From Gallionella sp. (GTDB lineage: Bacteria > Pseudomonadota > Gammaproteobacteria > Burkholderiales > Gallionellaceae), in NCBI GenBank assembly GCA_024653675.1, contig JANLIB010000192.1:1-33029 (forward strand): a stretch of DNA of 33,029 nucleotides, given 5' to 3'. Shown one piece after another: positions 22,707 to 32,919 of the stretch. Both the position numbers and the translations under genes were made by a program. Position 1 is the stretch's first letter. Each line of letters opens with the position of its first letter. A model generated the notes under the pieces. That model searched no databases, had not been told where the DNA came from, and was given only the letters and a program-made list of their open reading frames with translations.

Positions 22707-23507
22707 ATGACCCTGAACCCCCTGCATATCTCTGCCGACATCTGGCGCAACCGCTATCTGCTCGGCCAGCTCGTCAAGCGCGACGTGCTGCTGCGCTATC
22801 GCGGGGCGATGTTCGGCGTGATGTGGGTCTTCCTCAGCCCGCTGATCATGCTGGCGATCTTTGCTTTCATCTTCGGTCAGATATTCCAGGCACGCTGGCC
22901 TCAACAGGAAAGCGGCATCCCTTTCTGGCTGTTGCTCTACAGCGGTCTTATCGCCTTCAACCTGTTCGCCGAAACCATTTCCCGCGCGCCCGCGTCGGTT
23001 CGCGGATATCCCAGCTTCGTCAAGAAAATCATTTTTCCGGTGAGCATATTGCCCCTGGTGCCGCTTGGCGCCGCGCTGGTGCATGGAGGATTCAACTTCC
23101 TGATCCTGCTTGCCGCCCTCGCCTGGACCGGCCATCTGCATGCCGGCATCCTGCTGTTCCCTTTACTGATTACTCCTTTGCTCTTGCTTGCCTTGGGGCT
23201 GTCGTGGTTTTTTGCGGCATGGGGGGTGTTCATCAAGGACATGACCCAGATCGTGCCGGTGTTCGTGCAGATGCTGATGTTCCTGTCACCGGTGTTCTAT
23301 CCGGCAAGCGCGGTGCCTGAAGCGCTTCGCCCCGTTTTCCATTACAACCCGTTGAGCACAGTGATCGAGTCATGCCGCGCCACAGTAACCGGCCAGCCGG
23401 TTGAATGGGGGGCATGGGGTATGGCGTTTGTTTTCTGCCTGGTTGCGGCAATCCTGGGTTATGCCTTCTTCCAGCACAGCAGGGATGAGTTCGCCGATGC
23501 GCTCTGA
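22707..23507 (+). CDS. wzm: Polysaccharide ABC transporter permease (Wzm type)
   Basis: A 266-residue inner-membrane permease of the ABC-2 family that exports undecaprenyl-linked O-antigen or capsule chains together with Wzt. Family features are LVKRDVLLRYRGAMFGVMWVFLSPLI near the start and about six hydrophobic segments (MLAIFAFIFGQIF, FWLLLYSGLIAFNLF, GILLFPLLITPLLLLALGLSW, FVQMLMFLSPVFYP, MAFVFCLVAAILGYAFF). FIKDMTQIVPVFVQMLMFLS is a classic stretch. No good ribosome-binding site lies before the ATG at 22707. The 3' end overlaps wzt. Confidence 0.9.
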   Translation: MTLNPLHISADIWRNRYLLGQLVKRDVLLRYRGAMFGVMWVFLSPLIMLAIFAFIFGQIFQARWPQQESGIPFWLLLYSGLIAFNLFAETISRAPASVRGYPSFVKKIIFPVSILPLVPLGAALVHGGFNFLILLAALAWTGHLHAGILLFPLLITPLLLLALGLSWFFAAWGVFIKDMTQIVPVFVQMLMFLSPVFYPASAVPEALRPVFHYNPLSTVIESCRATVTGQPVEWGAWGMAFVFCLVAAILGYAFFQHSRDEFADAL

Positions 23508-24702
23508 CATTGCCATCTCGGTCAGGAACCTGACCAAGACTTATCGTATCTTTGGCCACCCAGGCGACCGGATCAAACAGGCGCTCACGTTTGGCAAAAT
23601 GCGCTTTCACCGTGAGTTCACTGCCTTGCAGGATATATCCTTCGAAATCAAAAAAGGGGAAACTGTCGGCATCGTTGGCCGCAATGGCTCTGGCAAGAGC
23701 ACCCTGTTACAACTTCTTTGCGGCATTCTCAAGCCAACCTCCGGCACGGTGCAGGTCAATGGCCGTGTTTCTGCGCTGCTGGAACTGGGCGCCGGGTTCA
23801 ACCCGGAATTCACCGGGCGCGAGAACGTCTATTTTCAGGGCGCGGTGATGGGGCTGACGAGGGCGGAAATGGATGCGCGCTTCGCCGATATCGCAGCCTT
23901 TGCGGATATCGGCGATTTCATCGACCAGCCGGTGCGGATTTATTCGAGCGGGATGTTTGTAAGACTGGCATTCGCTGTTGCCGTGCATGTGGATCCGGAT
24001 ATTCTGATAATCGATGAGGTTCTGGCAGTTGGCGATACGATATTTCAGCAGAAATGCATAGACCAGATATCCATGCTGCAATCCCAAGGTACGACGATTA
24101 TCGTGGTATCGCACAATCCTTACCATATTGAGCGTTTGTGCCACCAGGCAGCTGTTTTGCATCAGGGCAAACTATCCGATCTGAGGCCAGCCAAGGAAAT
24201 TCTGGCGCAGTACCATGAAATGGTTCAAGAGGATATGGGTCCTTCTCCGGGTATGAATGAGAGCCTCCGGGAAGGTTCTCATGAACTTTATTTCGAAAAA
24301 GTATTGATCGAGAACGCTTCTGCATTTGTCACCAACAGAGTCCTGACGAACGAACCCATGTGTATCATAGCTGAAGTTTTTGCAAGATGCCCCATGGACA
24401 ATGTTCGTTTTCGTTTCGAACTTTGCTCCTCAAGCAATGATATTGTAGCGGTGGTTGCCACCAATGGCCTATCCGAAGCCTGGCAACTCAACGGAAAACA
24501 CCGCATTTCATTTACTTTAAATCCCTGCCAACTCACATCAGGCTGGTATTACCTAAACGCTATAGCAAGCAGCAAATACGTTAGACTTGACACTTGGCAA
24601 CGCGTTGTCGATTTCAAGGTTTTACTTCGAGACAAGAGCGCGCAAGATCTGTCACTGGATCAAGGCATTTTCGTCTGCCATGGTCATTGGGAATTTTCCT
24701 GA
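23497..24702 (+). CDS. wzt: Polysaccharide ABC transporter ATP-binding protein with C-terminal recognition domain (Wzt type)
   Basis: The ATPase that powers Wzm. It has Walker A GRNGSGKST at residues 61-69, the degenerate signature YSSGM, Walker B DILIIDEVLAVGD and the switch histidine in VVSHNPYHI. After about residue 250, a C-terminal domain of some 150 residues (FEKVLIENASAFVTN, IIAEVFARCPMDNVRF, GWYYLNAIASSKYVRL) resembles the Wzt carbohydrate-binding domain that recognises the chain's terminal modification. That domain is AT-richer than the ATPase part, fitting its known exchange between strains. The start is either 23497 (11-base overlap with wzm) or 23485; the track's 23401 start reads through wzm in another frame. 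Confidence 0.9.
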   Translation: MRSDIAISVRNLTKTYRIFGHPGDRIKQALTFGKMRFHREFTALQDISFEIKKGETVGIVGRNGSGKSTLLQLLCGILKPTSGTVQVNGRVSALLELGAGFNPEFTGRENVYFQGAVMGLTRAEMDARFADIAAFADIGDFIDQPVRIYSSGMFVRLAFAVAVHVDPDILIIDEVLAVGDTIFQQKCIDQISMLQSQGTTIIVVSHNPYHIERLCHQAAVLHQGKLSDLRPAKEILAQYHEMVQEDMGPSPGMNESLREGSHELYFEKVLIENASAFVTNRVLTNEPMCIIAEVFARCPMDNVRFRFELCSSSNDIVAVVATNGLSEAWQLNGKHRISFTLNPCQLTSGWYYLNAIASSKYVRLDTWQRVVDFKVLLRDKSAQDLSLDQGIFVCHGHWEFS

Positions 24703-24737: not shown

Positions 24738-25838
24738 ATGGACAAATTTGGAATAGACAGTCATAAGCTCATTTACCACCCGCAGCGCGTGACACAGTTT
24801 CTGGATGCGGGTGAAAACTGGGAACTTGCCAAACACGTCTACCCGATTTATGTGGAAGTTTCTCCAGTAGGAGCTTGTAACCACCGCTGCACCTTTTGCG
24901 CGGTTGACTACATTGGCTACAAGAGCCAGATGCTGGATGTCGGCGTGCTTTCCGGACGTTTGGCCGAAATAGGGCGGCTCGGCGTCAGGAGCATCATGTA
25001 TGCCGGCGAAGGCGAGCCGCTGCTGCACAAGAAAATCAACGAGATCGTCAAAGCGACAAAAAATGCCGGCATCGACGTGTCGTTCACCACCAATGCCACG
25101 GTGCTGAATGAAGCATTTGTCGAACAATCACTGCCGCTAACTTCCTGGATAAAGGTTTCCATCAATGCCGGCACTGCTGCCACCTACGCAAAAATTCATC
25201 AAACCAAGGAACGGGATTTTGACCGGGTAGTGGTCAACCTGAAACATGCGGTTGAATACAAGAAAGCTCATGGGCTGGACTGTACGATAGGCGCGCAATC
25301 CCTGCTTCTACCGGAGAATTCAGATGAGATGGAAACGCTGGCGCTGCTGTGCCGCGATGAAATCGGGCTGGACTACCTTGTGGTCAAGCCGTATTCACAG
25401 CACATGTTCAGCGAAACCCATGTCTATGAGAATGTCGATTACAGCGCTTACCTGGCGATGGCATCATCTCTTGAAAAGCTGAACACGGAAAACTTTCATG
25501 TGGTATTTAGAGAAAATACCATGCGGAAATATATGGAAGATGAAAGCTCGCGTTACAAAAAATGCAATGCGACCCCGTTCTTCTGGGCTTATGTCATGGC
25601 CGACGGGTCGGTCTATGGGTGCAGCGCTTACCTGCTCGACAAACGCTTCGAATATGGTAACCTCAACGAGCAATCATTTCAGGCGATATGGGAAGGCGAG
25701 CGGCGCAAGGCTAATTTTCACTATGTCAGGAATGAACTGGACATCATGGAATGCCGGAAAAACTGCCGTATGGATGAGGTGAACCGCTATCTTTATCAGC
25801 TGCGCGAAAACCTTGTTCAGCACGTGAATTTTATTTGA
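24738..25838 (+). CDS. Radical SAM/SPASM-like protein of unknown substrate
   Basis: A 366-residue radical S-adenosylmethionine enzyme. The cluster-binding motif is CNHRCTFC (Cys47, Cys51, Cys54), followed by the SAM-contact segment [10 protein letters not shown]. Cysteines 276, 295, 339 and 343 in the C-terminal part ([19 protein letters not shown]) suggest auxiliary iron-sulfur ligands as in SPASM or twitch domains. [16 protein letters not shown] is typical of that region. The protein shares its start ([12 protein letters not shown]) and end (HVNFI) with the second radical SAM protein at 31390. No signal peptide or peptide-substrate gene is nearby. Its place between Wzt and a sugar epimerase suggests action on a sugar or sugar nucleotide, which is inference. 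It begins 35 bases after wzt. Confidence 0.85.
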
Positions 25839-25845
25839 GTCCATC

Positions 25846-26841
25846 ATGAAAACCTTAATCACCGGCGGCGCCGGTTTTATCGGCAGCCACTTGGCGGAAT
25901 TACTGATCGGGAAAGGGCACGAGGTTATCGTCGTCGACAATCTGCTCTCCGGGCGCCTGAAAAATCTGCAGTCGGTTACCGGGCATGCCGGATTCAAGTT
26001 CACCCAGGCGGATATTCGCGACATGGCTTCCCTGCAGCCGCTCTTTGAAAATGCGGACTGGGTATTTCACCTCGCCGGGCTGGCGGATATCGTGCCTTCG
26101 ATCGAAATGCCGGCGCAATACTACAGCACCAATGTCACCGGCACCTTCAACGTGCTGGAGTGCGCGCGTCAATGCGGCGTGAAACGGCTCATCTATGCTG
26201 CATCATCGTCAAGTTACGGCATTCCGGATGTGTATCCCACGCCGGAATCGTCTCCGATCAAACCGCAATACCCCTATGCCCTGACCAAATATATGGGAGA
26301 AGAACTGGTGCTGCACTGGTCTAGCGTTTACAAGCTGCCCGCCGTCTCTTTACGCCTGTTCAATGTGTTCGGAACACGATCCCGCACATCCGGGGCATAT
26401 GGCGCAGTCTTCGGCGTATTCCTGGCGCAAAAGCTCAATGGGAAACCTTTTACAGTAGTAGGAGACGGCACACAGACCAGGGACTTTACCTATGTCACTG
26501 ATGTTGCCGAAGCATTCTTGTGTGCGGCAGAATCCTCAATTTCCGGAGAGGCAATGAATGTCGGCAGCGGCAGCCATTACAGCGTCAATCGTCTTGTTGA
26601 ATTGCTGGGAGGAGATATCGAATATATTCCCAGACGCCCCGGGGAGCCTGATTGTACATTCGGTGACATATCCAGAATACAACGTTTGCTTGGATGGAAA
26701 GCCAGAGTCAGCTTTGAAGAAGGCGTAAGCCGGATGATAGAGCGCATCAACGACTGGAAGGATGCGCCGGTATGGGATCCTGCCAGCATCAATCAGGCGA
26801 CCAGCTCATGGTTCAAATATCTGGGAGAAAAGCAGCAATGA
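25846..26841 (+). CDS. NAD-dependent sugar-nucleotide epimerase/dehydratase (extended SDR)
   Basis: A 331-residue extended short-chain dehydrogenase of the GalE/WbpP-like class. The cofactor motif is TGGAGFIGSHLAELL; the active-site series is AASSSSYG and YALTKYMGEE (Tyr-x3-Lys). VSLRLFNVFGTR and FTYVTDVAEAFLCAAE are the usual substrate-loop and C-terminal segments. Reactions possible for this class include 4-epimerisation and 4,6-dehydration; the sequence alone does not decide. It follows the radical SAM gene by seven bases and overlaps the SIS gene by four (ATGA), so it is translated as part of the same operon. By context it probably acts on a UDP- or NDP-activated sugar made by the next two genes. 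Confidence 0.88.
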   Translation: MKTLITGGAGFIGSHLAELLIGKGHEVIVVDNLLSGRLKNLQSVTGHAGFKFTQADIRDMASLQPLFENADWVFHLAGLADIVPSIEMPAQYYSTNVTGTFNVLECARQCGVKRLIYAASSSSYGIPDVYPTPESSPIKPQYPYALTKYMGEELVLHWSSVYKLPAVSLRLFNVFGTRSRTSGAYGAVFGVFLAQKLNGKPFTVVGDGTQTRDFTYVTDVAEAFLCAAESSISGEAMNVGSGSHYSVNRLVELLGGDIEYIPRRPGEPDCTFGDISRIQRLLGWKARVSFEEGVSRMIERINDWKDAPVWDPASINQATSSWFKYLGEKQQ

Positions 26842-27440
26842 CGAAAGAACTGGAAGACATGCAGCTTGCGAAACGGGCTGCAAAATTTGCGGCATTGCTG
26901 GGGAGCTGCGAAGTCACCGGCAGGAATGGCTCTTCGCTGGGAACAGAAGCCGGCATCGCAACCGCCTTGCAGATTCTTACCCGTATGCGCGGCAAAAACG
27001 GCAGCGTTTATGTCATCGGCAACGGCGGCAGCGCCGCAGTGGCAAGCCATGCGGTAATCGATCTTATCAATGTTGCGAAGCTGCGCGCATTCACGCTGCA
27101 TGAACCATCGGTGCTCACCTGCATTGTCAACGATTACGGCTACGAGAACGCCTATTCACGCCTGCTGGCGCATATGGCGCGACCGGAGGATATATTGATT
27201 GCCATCAGCAGTTCCGGACGTTCGATGAATATCCGCAATGCGGCGACGCAGGTTATCAACAACGGCGGCAGCGTTATCACCTTAAGCGGTTTTCTGCACG
27301 ACAATCCGTTACGCTCCATGGGTGATGTCAATATCTGGCTGGATATCAGCGATTACGGCCTGGTCGAGATCGGGCACCAGTTCATTCTGCATAACATGTC
27401 CGACCGCTTTGGCGCAGGCTACGGAAGCACCGCAGCATGA
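26838..27440 (+). CDS. GmhA-like phosphosugar isomerase (SIS domain)
   Basis: A 200-residue SIS-domain protein resembling sedoheptulose-7-phosphate isomerase. VYVIGNGGSAAVASHAVIDL and ISSSGRSMNIRNAA are the sugar-phosphate-binding motifs. LVEIGHQFILHNMSDRF near the C-terminus holds a histidine in the position expected of GmhA-type helices. GmhA makes D-glycero-D-manno-heptose 7-phosphate from sedoheptulose 7-phosphate. The start at 26838 overlaps the previous stop; the track's 26772 start reads into the epimerase. The stop overlaps the next gene (ATGA), which encodes the kinase and nucleotidyltransferase steps that normally follow. It differs from housekeeping GmhA in its flanking sequence (ARPEDILIAISSSGRS), so it may be a specialised paralogue. 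Confidence 0.82.
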   Translation: MTKELEDMQLAKRAAKFAALLGSCEVTGRNGSSLGTEAGIATALQILTRMRGKNGSVYVIGNGGSAAVASHAVIDLINVAKLRAFTLHEPSVLTCIVNDYGYENAYSRLLAHMARPEDILIAISSSGRSMNIRNAATQVINNGGSVITLSGFLHDNPLRSMGDVNIWLDISDYGLVEIGHQFILHNMSDRFGAGYGSTAA

Positions 27441-28960
27441 GCACAGAAAAAATCCTCGACTTGCAGGAACTTGTGGCGCGTGCCCGGCAACTCCGCGACG
27501 GCGGAAAACAGGTAGTGCTGTGCCACGGCACTTACGACCTTATGCACACCGGGCACATCCGTTATCTGCAACGCGCAAAGCAGGAAGGCGATATTCTGCT
27601 GGTCACGGTCACTGCCGATGCCTATGTCAACAAGGGTCCTGGCCGGCCGGTGTTCAATGAGCAACTGCGCGCCGAAAGCCTGGCTGCGCTGGCCTGTGTC
27701 GATTATGTCGCCATCAACCATGCCGTTTCCGCAGTCGAAGCGCTGCACGCAATTCAGCCCAATATTTACGCCAAAGGCAGCGATTACCGCTCGCACAGCG
27801 AAGATGTGACGGGGAATATCGCCCTGGAACAGGCTGCTGTCGAAGCGCACGGCGGACGTATTTTCTATACCGACGAAATTACATTCAGCTCCAGCAACTT
27901 GCTGAATTCCTACTTTGACGTTTTCCCGCCGGAAGTCAGGGGATTCCTCAAGGATTTCCGCGAACGCTGGCCGGAAAATGAAGTCCGCAAAATGATTGCC
28001 ACGCTGGGCGATTTGAAGGTTCTTGTCGTCGGTGACGCCATCATAGACCAGTATCACTACTCCACCCCTCTGGGGCAGACCGGCAAAGGCAGCTTTCTGG
28101 CCGTGCGCTATGAATCGGAAGAACAGTTTGCCGGCGGCTCCATTGCCGTCGCCAATCACATCGCAGGGTTTGCCGGGAGTGTCACCCTGTTGACGGGGCT
28201 GGGTAAAGTTGACAGCCATGAGCAGTTTATCCTGGACAAATTGTCAAAAAATGTCGAACCGGTATTTTTTGCTTTTGCCGATGCGCCAACGGTAACCAAG
28301 CGGCGCTTTGTCGATAACGATCTGGCAAAATTTTTCGAGGTATATTTTTACAAGGAAAATGCCGTTTACGGAGAAGTGGAGCAGCGAATCTGCCAATGGC
28401 TCGGTGCAAATATTGCGTCATATGATGCGGTAATCGTGCCGGATTTCGGGAACGGCTTCATCACTCCGGCCATGATCAGCATCCTCTCCGCCAAAGCGAA
28501 ATACCTCGCGGTCAATACGCAGATCAACAGCGGCAATCGCGGCTATCATGTGATTCACCGTTATCCGCGGGCTGATTTCGTCTCTCTCAATGAACCGGAG
28601 CTGCGCCTGGCCGCGCATAACCGCAATGACCCTCTGGAAGCAGTGGCCGGCCTGATGGGCGAAAGGGTGCAGGCCAGGCAATTGGCCGTCACGCGCGGAA
28701 CCAAAGGAGTGATGATTTATGATCGGGACATGAGAATGTTTCACAATGTCCCGGCGCTGGCCACACGGGTGATCGACCGTATCGGTGCGGGTGACGCTTT
28801 CCTGTCTTTGGCGGGCATATGCCTTGCCAGAGGACTTGATGCACAGGTTGCCGCATTTGTCGGCAGCGTGGCTGCCGCAATGGATGTGCAGATCGTCTGC
28901 AACAGGGAACCCATCAATCCGGTTGGCCTCAATAAGTACGTTACCACCCTGTTGAAATAG
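27437..28960 (+). CDS. Nucleotidyltransferase-carbohydrate kinase fusion (HldE-like, reversed domain order)
   Basis: A 507-residue two-domain protein. Residues 1-170 form a cytidylyltransferase-like domain with LCHGTYDLMHTGHIRYL (HxGH at 37-40) and the RPVFNEQLRAESLAALACVDYV segment. From about residue 190 a PfkB/ribokinase-like domain starts (LKVLVVGDAIIDQYHY). It contains FAGGSIAVANHIAGF and the catalytic RIGAGDAF near residue 453. E. coli HldE carries the same two activities but with the kinase first. Here the nucleotidyltransferase comes first, so it is an independent fusion or a rearrangement. By analogy it would phosphorylate a heptose 7-phosphate at C1 and add a nucleotide; both substrate and nucleotide are unproven. 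It overlaps the SIS gene by four bases. Confidence 0.85.
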   Translation: MSTEKILDLQELVARARQLRDGGKQVVLCHGTYDLMHTGHIRYLQRAKQEGDILLVTVTADAYVNKGPGRPVFNEQLRAESLAALACVDYVAINHAVSAVEALHAIQPNIYAKGSDYRSHSEDVTGNIALEQAAVEAHGGRIFYTDEITFSSSNLLNSYFDVFPPEVRGFLKDFRERWPENEVRKMIATLGDLKVLVVGDAIIDQYHYSTPLGQTGKGSFLAVRYESEEQFAGGSIAVANHIAGFAGSVTLLTGLGKVDSHEQFILDKLSKNVEPVFFAFADAPTVTKRRFVDNDLAKFFEVYFYKENAVYGEVEQRICQWLGANIASYDAVIVPDFGNGFITPAMISILSAKAKYLAVNTQINSGNRGYHVIHRYPRADFVSLNEPELRLAAHNRNDPLEAVAGLMGERVQARQLAVTRGTKGVMIYDRDMRMFHNVPALATRVIDRIGAGDAFLSLAGICLARGLDAQVAAFVGSVAAAMDVQIVCNREPINPVGLNKYVTTLLK

Positions 28961-28973
28961 CCCACAACGACAA

Positions 28974-29936
28974 ATGAGCCACTCCAGCCAGCTTGCCCTG
29001 CTTCGCTCCATGTTGCGCATCAGGCGCATCGAGGAAGCCATTGCAGACCGCTATGCCGAACAGGAAATGCGCTGCCCGATGCATTTGTGCATCGGGCAGG
29101 AGGCCATTGCCGTGGGCGTATGTGCAGCGCTCTCAAAAGGCGATTCGGTATTCAGCAACCATCGCGCTCATGGGCACTATCTGGCAAAAGGCGGCAGCCT
29201 CAATGCGATGGTGGCGGAACTGTATGGCCGTTCAACGGGCTGTTGCGGTGGGCGCGGCGGGTCAATGCACTTGATTGATCTGGATGCCGGATTTTCCGGA
29301 TCCACTCCCATTGTAGGAGGTACAGTGCCGCTGGCGGTCGGGGCAGCATGGGCTTCCTCGCTCAAACAAAGCGAGCAGGTTACAGTGGTTTTCTTCGGGG
29401 ATGGCTGCTTTGAAGAAGGCGTTGTTCACGAATCCATGAATTTCGCAAAGCTGCACAAACTACCGGTGGTATTTGTATGCGAAAACAATAATTTTTCCGT
29501 TTATACGCGCTTGAACGAGCGGCAACCTGAACGCCCGTTATACCGGGTGGCTGAAGCTCATGGCTTGGCCGCCTATACCGGCAACGGCAACGATGTGGAA
29601 GAAGTGCTGGCAATCTCGCGCAAGGCTGTCGGCCTCGCAAGGCAAGGGCAAGGGCCTCAGTTCATAGAGTTGCATGCTTACCGCTGGCGCGAACACTGCG
29701 GGCCAAACTTTGACGATGAATTGAATTACCGGACGGCGCAGGAAATCAAAGCGGGAATACATGACTGCCCTATCGCCAGTTACACCAGAAAACTGGAAAA
29801 GGAAAACGGAAACATCCATCTCGAAATTGAGCGATGCGAGGCCGAAATACAACGGGAGATCGCCGCCGCCTTCGAGTTTGCTCTCTCCAGCAAAAAACCG
29901 TCCATCGATGATTCCCAAGGGAAGGTCTACGCCTGA
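28974..29936 (+). CDS. Thiamine-dependent dehydrogenase E1 component, alpha subunit
   Basis: A 320-residue protein of the pyruvate/branched-chain 2-oxoacid dehydrogenase E1-alpha family. The thiamine-diphosphate motif is complete: GDG at residues 142-144 (FFGDGCFEEGVVHESMNFA) and NNN at 171-173. MHLCIGQEAIAVGVCAAL and NHRAHGHYLAKGGSL are other family segments. In ordinary complexes E1 decarboxylates a 2-oxoacid and passes the acyl unit to lipoyl-E2. No E2 or E3 gene is in the window, and the neighbours are sugar genes, so it may form a carbon-carbon bond on a sugar instead (inference). It begins 13 bases after the kinase fusion and ends one base before E1 beta. The C-terminal 40 residues are charged and may be a linker. 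Confidence 0.87.
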   Translation: MSHSSQLALLRSMLRIRRIEEAIADRYAEQEMRCPMHLCIGQEAIAVGVCAALSKGDSVFSNHRAHGHYLAKGGSLNAMVAELYGRSTGCCGGRGGSMHLIDLDAGFSGSTPIVGGTVPLAVGAAWASSLKQSEQVTVVFFGDGCFEEGVVHESMNFAKLHKLPVVFVCENNNFSVYTRLNERQPERPLYRVAEAHGLAAYTGNGNDVEEVLAISRKAVGLARQGQGPQFIELHAYRWREHCGPNFDDELNYRTAQEIKAGIHDCPIASYTRKLEKENGNIHLEIERCEAEIQREIAAAFEFALSSKKPSIDDSQGKVYA

Positions 29937-29937
29937 A

Positions 29938-31017
29938 ATGAAGCATCGGGATATCACTTTCGCAGAAGCGATCCGGGAAGGCCTTGATCAGTCCATGGAA
30001 AAGGATCCCCGCGTGATCGTCATCGGCGAAGGCGTGCCCGACCCCAAGGCGATTTTCAATACCACTGCCGGCCTGCGCGATAAATATGGCAACCGGAGAG
30101 TTTTTGACATGCCGCTGTCCGAGAACGGCATGACCGGAATTTGTATCGGCGCCGCACTTTCCGGGCTGCGTCCCGTCATGGTGCATCAGCGTATTGATTT
30201 TGCGCTATTGGCGATGGATCAATTGATCAATAATGCTGCCAAGTGGCATTACATGTTTGACGGCAAGGCATCCGTTCCGCTGGTTGTTCGCATGATCGTA
30301 GGCCGCGGATGGGGACAGGGCCCCCAGCATTCGCAGAGCTTGCAAGCCATGTTCGCGCATGCGCCGGGAATCAAGGTCATTATGCCGACGACTGCTTATG
30401 ACGCAAAAGGAATGCTGATCTCAGCGATAGAGGATAACAACCCGGTACTGTTCATTGAACATCGCTTGCTACACCAGATTAAAGACAATGTTCCCGAAGA
30501 ATACTATCGTGTGCCGCTGGGACAGGCAAAAGTGTTGCATGAAGGCGATGCCGTTACGGTAGCAGCCTTTTCTTATATGGCGGTCGAAGCACTGGTTGCC
30601 GCCAAAGCGCTGAAATCGGCCATGGGAATTGGCATCGACGTACTGGATATGCGTAGCGTGCGCCCGCTTGACGTTGCCAGCGTGCTGAATTCAGTCCGGA
30701 AAACGGGACAATTGATTGTCGCGGATACAGCATCTCGTACAGGCAGTATCGCAGGTGAATTAATCAGCCAGGTTTCCGAGCAAGCCTTTGATGCGTTGAG
30801 AACCCATCCTGTACGCATCGCCTGTCCCGATCATCCCGCTCCAACTTCCCACTTTATGACCAGGCACTATTACCCAGGCCCGCAAATGATTGCCGATGAA
30901 GTGCTCAAAATGGTCGGCGCGGATAAAACATCGACCAACTATCGCGAATTGTGCGCATTGATGTTGCACGACGGACCGCATGACGCCCCGAATCGCGGAT
31001 TTACCGGGCCGTTTTGA
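29938..31017 (+). CDS. Thiamine-dependent dehydrogenase E1 component, beta subunit
   Basis: A 359-residue E1-beta family protein that would pair with the alpha subunit as an alpha2-beta2 heterotetramer. The N-terminal pyrimidine-binding half has ITFAEAIREGLDQSMEKDPR, VIVIGEGVPDP and the PLSENGMTGICIGAALSGLR segment with the conserved catalytic-type glutamate (SEN). GQGPQHSQSLQAMFAHAPGI corresponds to the HSQS loop of PDH-beta. The C-terminal half has VLDMRSVRPLDVASVLNSV and VADTASRTGSIAGELISQV. I use the ATG at 29938 (MKHRDITFAEA), one base after the alpha stop; the track start at 29761 reads through alpha in another frame. The C-terminal tail (about 40 residues) is longer than in housekeeping PdhB. 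The function within a sugar cluster is inferred as for alpha. Confidence 0.86.
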   Translation: MKHRDITFAEAIREGLDQSMEKDPRVIVIGEGVPDPKAIFNTTAGLRDKYGNRRVFDMPLSENGMTGICIGAALSGLRPVMVHQRIDFALLAMDQLINNAAKWHYMFDGKASVPLVVRMIVGRGWGQGPQHSQSLQAMFAHAPGIKVIMPTTAYDAKGMLISAIEDNNPVLFIEHRLLHQIKDNVPEEYYRVPLGQAKVLHEGDAVTVAAFSYMAVEALVAAKALKSAMGIGIDVLDMRSVRPLDVASVLNSVRKTGQLIVADTASRTGSIAGELISQVSEQAFDALRTHPVRIACPDHPAPTSHFMTRHYYPGPQMIADEVLKMVGADKTSTNYRELCALMLHDGPHDAPNRGFTGPF

Positions 31018-31054: not shown

Positions 31055-31393
31055 ATGAGCAGTAATCTTTATAATGCCAATACAAATACGCCAGCACCCG
31101 GGCATACCTGGCGCCAACTATCCGATAACGAGAGACTTGTTCTCGTTAATAATACTGTGACGGCCAGGATGGCGGCCTTAAACAAAACTCTTGTGGCTGT
31201 CGAAGCAAAGCTGGATGGCCAGGTAATAATAAGGCTGCTCGAACCTGTTCCCGCCGACAAACGCGGAACGCTGTTGCTTGATCTTGAAGCTTTTCTGAAG
31301 GAATCGATTGATCCGGGGCTTGTCGTCTGGCTCGAACCTTTCGGGGATCGCAGCTCGTTAAGAAACCTTCGTGGCATTGAGGTGAAATCATGA
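31055..31393 (+). CDS. Small protein of unknown function preceding the second radical SAM gene
   Basis: A 112-residue protein I do not recognise. It has no signal peptide, transmembrane segment or cysteine. The N-terminal 20 residues are polar and probably flexible; the middle looks like a helix (LVLVNNTVTARMAALNKTLV) followed by two strands (VEAKLDGQVIIRLLEPV). The end reads like a helix and strand (LLLDLEAFLKESI, GLVVWLEPFGD) and then LRNLRGIEVKS. The stop overlaps the radical SAM start (ATGA), which suggests a close working link, perhaps an accessory or substrate-presenting subunit. That role is inference. The first 100 bases are AT-richer than the neighbouring genes. The start at 31055 has no clear ribosome-binding site and is not certain. 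Confidence 0.65.
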   Translation: MSSNLYNANTNTPAPGHTWRQLSDNERLVLVNNTVTARMAALNKTLVAVEAKLDGQVIIRLLEPVPADKRGTLLLDLEAFLKESIDPGLVVWLEPFGDRSSLRNLRGIEVKS

Positions 31394-32529
31394 GTGAGGC
31401 TGTTCAGACGCGCGAAGGCACGCTGATCCTCGACTCCCACAAGCTTTCCTATCACACCGACCGGGTGGAGGCATGGGAAGCCGGGGAGCGGATAGCCCCT
31501 GTCAGTGTCGATATGTCTCTAACCCGCGCGTGCGGCGCCATGTGCACATTCTGCTACGCCATGATGCAGGAATCACAGGCGCGCAGCAGCATCAAGACTT
31601 CCCACGCGCTCAACCTGCTCGACGATTTTGCCGCCATCGGCATACGCAGCGTTTCGCTTGTTTCGGATGGGGAAAGCACGCTGTCGAATGCGTATGTGCC
31701 CTTCATTCAACACGCTGCCAAGCTGGGAATTGACGTTGGGAATGCCACGAATGCATGGGAATGGGAACCGGAAAAGATCGAACAGGTCTTGCCCCATCTC
31801 ACCTGGGTGCGCTTCACGGTTGCTGCCGGAAGGCCGGAAAGCTACGCAAAAATTATGTACAAAGGACCCGAACATACCGAAGTTTTTGACCGTGCCATTA
31901 AGCACATCAAGTACGCCGTTGACCTCAAGAAGCGCAATCGTCTGCCGGTAACGCTGGGCATCCAGATGGTGCTGATGCCGCACTTGAAAGAGGAGATCAT
32001 TCCATTCGCACAACTCGGCCTCGATCTTGGCGTTGACTATGCCGTGATCAAGCACTGCTCGGACGACGAACAGCACACGCTGGGCATAGACTACAGCCAA
32101 TATGAAAGCCTTCATGACCTGCTTATTCAGGCGGAGTCCATGAGCAACGAGCAAACCAAAATTATTGTCAAATGGGACAAGATCAGGGATGGGGATAAGC
32201 CGTCCTACAAGCGCTTCTATGGTCCCCAGTTTTTGCTGCAAATCAGCGGCAGCGGCCTGGTGGCGCCTTCCGGCATGTTCTTTAATGCCCGCTATTCCAA
32301 ACTCCATATCGGCAATTTTACTGAAGAACGGTTCATTGATATCTGGAAATCCGAGCGTTACTGGCGAGCCATGAATTATCTGGCTTCTCCGGCTTTCGAT
32401 GCCCAGACCATGATGGGCACATTGCCGATTCAGCACTATGTGAGTGTGGCACTCGACAATCACGCCAAAGGCATAGCGCGAATCCGTCCGGGCACCGGGC
32501 AAAAGCCGCTGCATGTTAATTTTTTGTGA
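31390..32529 (+). CDS. Second radical SAM protein, paralogue lacking the auxiliary cysteines
   Basis: A 379-residue radical S-adenosylmethionine protein. The cluster motif is CGAMCTFC (Cys48, Cys52, Cys55), with SDGESTL in the place of the GGEP-like motif. It shares with the protein at 24738 the start pattern DSHKLSYHTDRV, the SYAKI stretch, IGNFTEERFIDIWKSERY (compare [17 protein letters not shown]) and the end HVNFL. Where the first protein has GCSAY and CRKNC, this one has APSGM and no cysteine pair, so an auxiliary cluster is probably absent. The substrate is unknown; I infer a sugar-related reaction from the operon. It overlaps the small protein gene by four bases and is the last complete gene in the window. 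Confidence 0.85.
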   Translation: MSEAVQTREGTLILDSHKLSYHTDRVEAWEAGERIAPVSVDMSLTRACGAMCTFCYAMMQESQARSSIKTSHALNLLDDFAAIGIRSVSLVSDGESTLSNAYVPFIQHAAKLGIDVGNATNAWEWEPEKIEQVLPHLTWVRFTVAAGRPESYAKIMYKGPEHTEVFDRAIKHIKYAVDLKKRNRLPVTLGIQMVLMPHLKEEIIPFAQLGLDLGVDYAVIKHCSDDEQHTLGIDYSQYESLHDLLIQAESMSNEQTKIIVKWDKIRDGDKPSYKRFYGPQFLLQISGSGLVAPSGMFFNARYSKLHIGNFTEERFIDIWKSERYWRAMNYLASPAFDAQTMMGTLPIQHYVSVALDNHAKGIARIRPGTGQKPLHVNFL

Positions 32530-32583: not shown

Positions 32584-32919
32584 ATGGCTGCAACCCATGT
32601 TAACAATACCTCCCTGCATACTGAACATTTAACCCACCCAAAATACCGCGCAGACATTGACGGCTTACGTGCAATAGCAGTTCTCTCAGTTGTAGGGTTT
32701 CATGCTTTTCCTTCTTCGATTAAAGGTGGGTTTGTTGGCGTCGATGTTTTCTTCGTCATCTCCGGATTTTTAATCTCAACAATTATTATTGGCAGCCTGG
32801 AGCGAAATAGCTTTAGCTTCATTGAGTTTTATAGTCGTCGCATCAAACGCATATTCCCAGCCCTGCTTTTGGTATTGATTGCCAGCTTTGCAATTGGCTG
32901 GTTTGTGCCACTATGTTGA
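32584..32919 (+). pseudogene. Acyltransferase-3 (OafA/YrhL-like) gene, 5' fragment
   Basis: The first 111 codons of an inner-membrane acyltransferase-3 protein, which O-acetylates surface polysaccharides. Typical pieces are [41 protein letters not shown] and [18 protein letters not shown], with the first transmembrane segments present. Full proteins have 350-650 residues and about ten helices. Here the frame ends at TGA (32917-32919) inside an inverted repeat, just after GWFVP, where a family member would go on. The gene was probably cut by a mobile element whose end starts about there. The rest could lie beyond the window. It is AT-richer than the cluster before it. The likely role before disruption is acetylation of the polysaccharide made by this locus. 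Confidence 0.75.

Follow-up and report, generated by a model that had tools for sequence, protein, structure and literature searches.

What is the function of an E1 alpha/beta pair that is encoded in the middle of a polysaccharide operon? The earlier note on this DNA from Gallionella sp. had raised this question and proposed that the pair, instead of feeding a lipoyl carrier, could transfer an acetyl or ketol unit to the aldehyde or ketone of a sugar. The window, by which we mean the whole stretch of DNA that was analysed (33,029 nucleotides), is one complete contig of a 2.94-Mb genome, and the polysaccharide operon fills its right-hand third. The genes are arranged in the order Wzm, Wzt, rSAM1, SDR, SIS isomerase, NTK, E1 alpha, E1 beta, a 112-aa protein and rSAM2, these ten on the forward (+) strand, followed by the beginning of an acyltransferase gene. 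We refer to the genes from rSAM1 to rSAM2 as the cassette.

The first gene of the operon encodes a Wzm-like ABC-2 polysaccharide export permease (22707..23507), which was identified from its sequence and of which a homologue (66%) adjoins the cassette in locus L024. Because of this permease we assigned the operon to a surface-polysaccharide cluster. It is followed by a Wzt-like ATPase with a Wzt_C domain (23401..24702; PF00005, 89 bits; PF14524). The start of this reading frame overlaps wzm and the true start is probably located further in. The radical SAM/SPASM enzyme rSAM1 (24738..25838; PF04055, PF13186) carries a CNHRCTFC motif and the SPASM cysteines, and its 58-80% homologues are found beside E1 in most loci. 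The SDR (25846..26841) resembles nucleotide-sugar epimerases and dehydratases (PF01370, 213 bits). Its best NCBIfam match is GalE with 198 bits, so it is GalE-like (C4-epimerase type) and stays under all NCBIfam cut-offs; none of the cassette genes could be identified as a 4,6-dehydratase.

The next two genes point to heptose metabolism. The SIS-domain isomerase (26772..27440; PF13580) resembles the sedoheptulose-7-phosphate isomerase GmhA (TIGR00441, 65 bits) and is additional to two GmhA paralogues on other contigs of the genome (C193 and C149, 195 bits). NTK (27437..28960) is an HldE-like bifunctional protein with a swapped order of domains, the nucleotidyltransferase at the N-terminus and the PfkB kinase at the C-terminus (TIGR02199, 104 bits; TIGR02198, 116 bits), and a canonical HldE nucleotidyltransferase is encoded on contig C193. 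Both proteins thus resemble the pair GmhA and HldE, yet they stay under the curated cut-offs. At the far end of the operon the acyltransferase family 3 gene (32584-32919) stops after 111 codons and covers only the start of a 326-position profile; it has been cut short or frameshifted close to the end of the contig.

E1 alpha (28974..29936) matches PF00676 with 213 bits, and E1 beta (29938..31017) contains the Transket_pyr (125 bits) and Transketolase_C (92 bits) domains. The structure of E1 beta alone was modelled with a pLDDT of 87.6 and a pTM of 0.89. The earlier note had described the thiamine motifs as intact, and this we can confirm. The ThDP-binding motif GDG...NN is found in E1 alpha by sequence and alignment (residues 142-172; 29397..29489), and the alignments also recover beta Glu62, the alpha loop His and beta His131 (30328..30330), the counterpart of the catalytic His128beta.

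A second claim, that both subunits have unusual charged tails, holds for one end of one subunit and there only in part. The beta reading frame as listed begins at 29761, within alpha. Since the ATG right after the alpha stop, at 29938, yields a normal N-terminus, we rejected the 59-residue N-terminal tail as a start-codon artefact. The alpha C-terminus aligns with the C-termini of ordinary E1 alpha. The beta C-terminus is indeed extended by ~30-35 residues with a conserved ending D-x-P-N-x-x-F-x-G-P-F, although it is not especially charged. In the window the tail reads DAPNRGFTGPF (30982..31014; modelled with moderate confidence, pLDDT 64-75) and it is absent from E2-linked E1 beta. An F-x-G-P-[F/Y] ending occurs in nearly all complete sugar-cluster E1 beta sequences. 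The exception in our first set is Solidesulfovibrio (L066), which together with two relatives at the order or genus level (L085, L087) shows the active-site pocket described below without the tail. A DNA-pattern search of this genome gave a single match, at E1 beta, and hence no other protein that bears the tail motif.

To which E1 enzymes is the pair related? In a concatenated alpha+beta tree (IQ-TREE, 67 sequences) a bipartition with a UFBoot support of 100 separated 50 stand-alone sequences, the window pair among them, from 17 others, which include all 8 plasmid-borne E1s with annotated adjoining E2 genes. FastTree recovered the same split with a support of 0.94. The window pair therefore groups with the stand-alone clade and not with PdhA/PdhB or acetoin dehydrogenase. 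Actinobacterial clusters were considered as direct comparators and rejected: the Embleya match (L061) groups with the E2-linked E1s in the tree, and the two Streptomyces members obtained from plasmid searches do not belong to sugar clusters. The curated cut-offs for pyruvate dehydrogenase E1 (TIGR03182 and PRK09212) were not reached, with 302 vs 394 bits for alpha and 293 vs 321 bits for beta. Nor is a split transketolase the best match (22 bits for PF00456 vs 213 bits for PF00676).

A tblastn search with E2 and E3 queries found neither gene in the window nor in any of the 50 stand-alone loci (757 kb), and it found E2 in 8/8 controls. The observation that no E2 or E3 gene is nearby thus extends from the contig, which ends ~2 kb after beta, to every homologous cassette examined. 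The 2-oxo acid dehydrogenase E2 domain was absent altogether from 9 of the 28 genomes with the cassette, among them three Nitrospira, two Woesearchaeota and one Patescibacteria. Several of these genomes are MAGs and, as many homologues come from MAGs, some of the absences may be due to incomplete genomes, and binning errors may lie behind some of the taxon labels.

The alignments also point to changes at the positions that deal with E2 and the lipoyl domain. Beta Arg288 (30799..30801) is found where all 8 E2-linked E1 beta sequences have Asp. Among the stand-alone sequences this position is acidic in 0/45 and Lys or Arg in 35/45. We take it to be the position of human Asp289, which presumably has a role in E2 binding. 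Subunit-binding domains carry a strong positive charge, and their binding is electrostatic (PMC6270654). In E1 alpha the loop after the catalytic His has changed from the GHSxxD of lipoyl-linked E1s to EH[C/V]GP in the stand-alone clade (EHCGP in the window, 29691..29705). The catalytic His itself is kept, and alpha Gly243 occurs in 45/45 stand-alone vs 0/10 comparison sequences. In the E1 of G. stearothermophilus the outer loop that follows His271alpha in the alpha subunit interacts with the lipoyl domain, and His128beta is located in a hydrophobic nest that includes Phe82beta, Phe85beta, Thr124beta and Pro125beta (PMC2663715). In place of this nest at the catalytic His the window pair has an invariant polar pocket, beta His83-x-Arg85-x-Asp87 (30184..30198), and a HMMER alignment places Arg85 at Phe82beta. 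Together with alpha Y69 and G243, the beta residues H83, R85, D35, W125 and R176 were observed in 45/45 stand-alone vs 0/10 comparison sequences. For the His-x-Arg motif the larger set gave 50/50 vs 0/17. From these residues we conclude that the acid-base machinery has been kept, whereas the pocket for the substrate and the loop that faces the lipoyl domain have been rebuilt. As the pocket Arg suits a carboxylate or a phosphate, the donor may also be a compound other than pyruvate.

We found 44 loci in GTDB genomes. The order rSAM1-SDR-SIS-NTK-E1a-E1b-112aa-rSAM2 is identical in 8 of them, and SIS-NTK-E1a-E1b occur together in at least 19. The source records are labelled Nitrospira, beta-, gamma- and zetaproteobacteria, Omnitrophota and others, and more distant members with variant cassettes come from Microcoleus, Nitrospina, Woesearchaeota and Patescibacteria. 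Other stand-alone pairs lie beside an HddA-like kinase, an HddC-like transferase and GmhA in Solidesulfovibrio (L066) and beside an HddC-GmhB fusion in Azospirillum lipoferum (L067). Aminotransferases often come after E1 in the stand-alone loci. We conclude that there is a real, conserved and E2-independent clade of E1 enzymes that is tied to heptose-type sugar genes. An E1 alpha match at E 1e-60 was present in 13 of 121 genomes (the genome itself and its relatives) and the clade signature in fewer; because so few genomes carry a match, we regard the trait as accessory and probably mobile. Some E1 clusters contain further ThDP enzymes, namely a split transketolase (L052) and an acetolactate-synthase-like protein (L053, with related ORFs in L045 and L049 and, judged by its N-terminus, in L122).

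The last two complete genes of the operon show a pattern of their own. The 112-aa protein (31055..31393) has an alpha-beta-beta-alpha-beta model (pLDDT 78.6), without a Pfam or NCBIfam match, a sequence relative in the PDB or a significant fold match. We did not accept a DUF59/NFU-like identity, as the matches are weak (E 0.06 and above) and do not constitute evidence. The radical SAM protein rSAM2 (31390..32529) carries a CGAMCTFC motif without the SPASM cysteines of its homologues, and the 112-aa gene was found only alongside this cysteine-poor form. The SPASM cysteines were missing in 13/13 rSAM2 proteins with a 112-aa neighbour (no late Cys, in one case a single one). The full-length rSAM2 proteins without the 112-aa gene (n=9) have 4-5 late Cys and an N-terminal extension with an FTGP motif. 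The rSAM2 of L060 (51% identical) has the cysteines, but neither the 112-aa gene nor the FTGP motif. Judged from this co-occurrence, the 112-aa protein may stand in for the lost auxiliary cluster region of rSAM2. Both genes stay paired in a genome of the same genus (G032, L121) despite the rearrangement of the rest of the cassette. Across phyla rSAM2 is 82-94% identical, compared to 64-73% for E1 alpha in the same loci, which is the mark of an unusual degree of constraint or of recent transfer.

The N-terminal extension of the long-form rSAM2 proteins shares a motif with the E1 beta tail. We searched the neighbouring proteins (219,636 residues) for [FY][TSKRV]GP[FSYW] and obtained 43 matches: 33 in E1 beta tails, 9 in the N-terminal extensions of long-form rSAM2 and 1 elsewhere. 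The long-form N-termini have the pattern (P)NxF[TS]GP[ST] and echo the E1 beta tail encoded just upstream (L016, L034-L036, L038, L040-L043, L059). One possible reading of the two sequence motifs is that they form a shared docking motif.

In antibiotic biosynthesis there are known E1 alpha/beta pairs that work without an E2 and attach two-carbon branches to sugars. Examples are AviB1/AviB2 for avilamycin, Plm8/Plm9, which correspond to Pau11/Pau12, for paulomycin, and KbDH (PMC4802897, PMC4753412, PMC4425429, PMC12247030). The alpha/beta enzyme KbDH, from the kibdelomycin pathway, couples pyruvate to ketones in vitro (PMC12247030). We compared these 'alphaKADH2' pairs with the cassette by their published descriptions. 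Both have separate E1 alpha and beta genes, no E2 or E3, and a location in a sugar gene cluster. In the alphaKADH2 pairs the 2-oxo acid dehydrogenase fold forms a C-C bond on a ketone, with pyruvate as the donor in the studied cases (PMC12247030, PMC4802897). However, they belong to the biosynthesis of actinobacterial antibiotics and their substrates are deoxy-keto sugars, whereas the cassette is found in Gram-negative bacteria, and possibly archaea, in a context of polysaccharide export, radical SAM enzymes and heptose-type genes.

Three other known systems share some of these features. The YerE-like enzymes, which act in the synthesis of the LPS sugars yersiniose, erwiniose and caryophyllose, likewise use ThDP to branch nucleotide keto-sugars that are destined for surface polysaccharides. 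They are single-chain proteins of the decarboxylase superfamily and not E1 alpha/beta pairs, and no such gene is found in the cassette: the window pair matches PF00676 and Transket_pyr instead of the single-chain TPP_enzyme_N/M/C architecture. The E1 alpha/beta subunits of pyruvate and acetoin dehydrogenases have the fold, the ThDP motif, the activating Glu and the catalytic His in common with the window pair, which differs from them in the lack of E2 and E3, the lost docking Asp, the replaced lipoyl loop, the His-x-Arg pocket and the FxGPF tail. Finally, the ADP- and GDP-heptose pathways (GmhA, HldE, HddA, HddC, GmhB) are homologous to the neighbouring isomerase, kinase and nucleotidyltransferase, although the cassette proteins fall under the curated cut-offs, show the swapped domain order, are additional to canonical copies and are joined to E1 and radical SAM genes.

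Considering the lost docking features, the new pocket and the sugar-coat cluster, the pair probably joins a small carbon unit to an unusual sugar. From the sequence comparisons we are highly confident that it would act in a sugar pathway, as a ThDP-dependent alpha2beta2 enzyme that stands alone, and not as the E1 of a 2-oxo acid dehydrogenase complex. By analogy to the characterised pairs it is likely to form a C-C bond on a sugar, by acyl addition or in a ketol version. The likeliest single version, to which the same analogy lends an even chance, is that a two-carbon acyl branch would be put on the keto group of a heptose-type nucleotide sugar, as by AviB1/AviB2 and Plm8/Plm9. The best explanation overall, a predicted lipoyl-free C-C ligase acting on a heptose-type sugar, we consider rather likely. 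What speaks against it is that the SDR scores as an epimerase of the C4 type and that the cassette has no recognised 4,6-dehydratase. Of the initial proposal, the part that no lipoyl carrier is fed is well supported by the phylogeny, the neighbourhoods, the absence of E2, the lost docking and loop residues and the pocket. The part on an acetyl or ketol transfer to a sugar has published precedent and a fitting gene context to speak for it.

In the proposed mechanism, the SIS isomerase and the HldE-like kinase/nucleotidyltransferase would supply a heptose-type phosphosugar or nucleotide sugar, and the SDR and the radical SAM enzymes would oxidise or epimerise it. E1 alpha/beta would decarboxylate pyruvate or a similar 2-oxo acid on ThDP, and the resulting ThDP carbanion would attack the sugar carbonyl in place of an acyl transfer to lipoate. 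The modified sugar would then be exported within the Wzm/Wzt polysaccharide.

The same genes can also be read with E1 alpha/beta upstream of the SIS isomerase. Like a transketolase or DXS, the pair would transfer a C2 unit to a sugar-phosphate aldehyde and generate a dedicated ketose phosphate, which the SIS isomerase would convert into the aldose and NTK would phosphorylate and activate. The order SIS-NTK-E1a-E1b parallels the transketolase-GmhA-HldE sequence of normal heptose synthesis, the E1 pairs are tied to both ADP- and GDP-heptose-type gene sets, and the invariant pocket Arg would suit a phosphate. Nevertheless, we regard this pathway as unlikely: an ordinary transketolase (contig C211) already makes sedoheptulose-7-phosphate in this genome, a pyruvate-derived 1-deoxyketose would not be isomerisable at C1, the E1 cluster of L052 has its own split transketolase as well, and the characterised E1 pairs transfer C2 onto ketones (PMC12247030).

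A ThDP enzyme whose activated aldehyde goes to a carrier protein or is released, with no C-C bond formed on a sugar, is a decidedly improbable alternative. No gene that recurs next to the sugar-cluster members was recognised as encoding a carrier protein, and the constant neighbours are heptose-type sugar genes. What favours such a route are two Streptomyces members in non-sugar clusters with AMP ligases (L064, L065), one of which also has carrier proteins, and the distantly related RenH in the renieramycin cluster. Both Streptomyces members are plasmid-borne, their metabolite clusters feature acyl-CoA dehydrogenase in addition, and their tails end in GPY; their E1 probably performs a lipoyl-free C2 transfer too. 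It is extremely improbable that the pair is an ordinary pyruvate or acetoin dehydrogenase E1 which works with an E2 and E3 encoded elsewhere: it has a family resemblance to pyruvate dehydrogenase E1 (302 bits for TIGR03182) and lipoyl proteins are encoded on other contigs, but the TIGR03182 and PRK09212 cut-offs are missed, the tree, the docking residue, the loop and the pocket all differ, 9 cassette genomes are without any E2, and, as the native pyruvate dehydrogenase is of the AceE type (the canonical AceE gene adjoins a lipoyl protein gene on contig C3), the E2 of that complex pairs with another E1.

The lipoyl-free C-C ligase may be part of a larger scheme, which we put forward as a tentative idea. 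A horizontally spread pathway of Gram-negative bacteria, and perhaps archaea, could combine the E1 carboligase with a duplicated module for heptose activation and with two radical SAM enzymes, and yield an undescribed branched or extended heptose of surface polysaccharides. The FxGPF tail would then be a docking element that one radical SAM partner has in common with E1 beta.

A literature search found no published work on this exact cassette. So far the branching of LPS sugars has been assigned to YerE-like enzymes, and branching by E1 alpha/beta pairs to antibiotic producers (PMC12247030, PMC4753412). With a conserved clade of E1 alpha/beta enzymes in polysaccharide clusters across many phyla, the known range of this branching chemistry would come to include cell envelopes. 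The His-x-Arg pocket and the FxGPF tail are markers that separate the clade from the genes annotated as 'pyruvate dehydrogenase E1', and the clade points to a sugar structure to seek in cultured members, for example Methylomonas sp. WSC-6 and Azospirillum oryzae.
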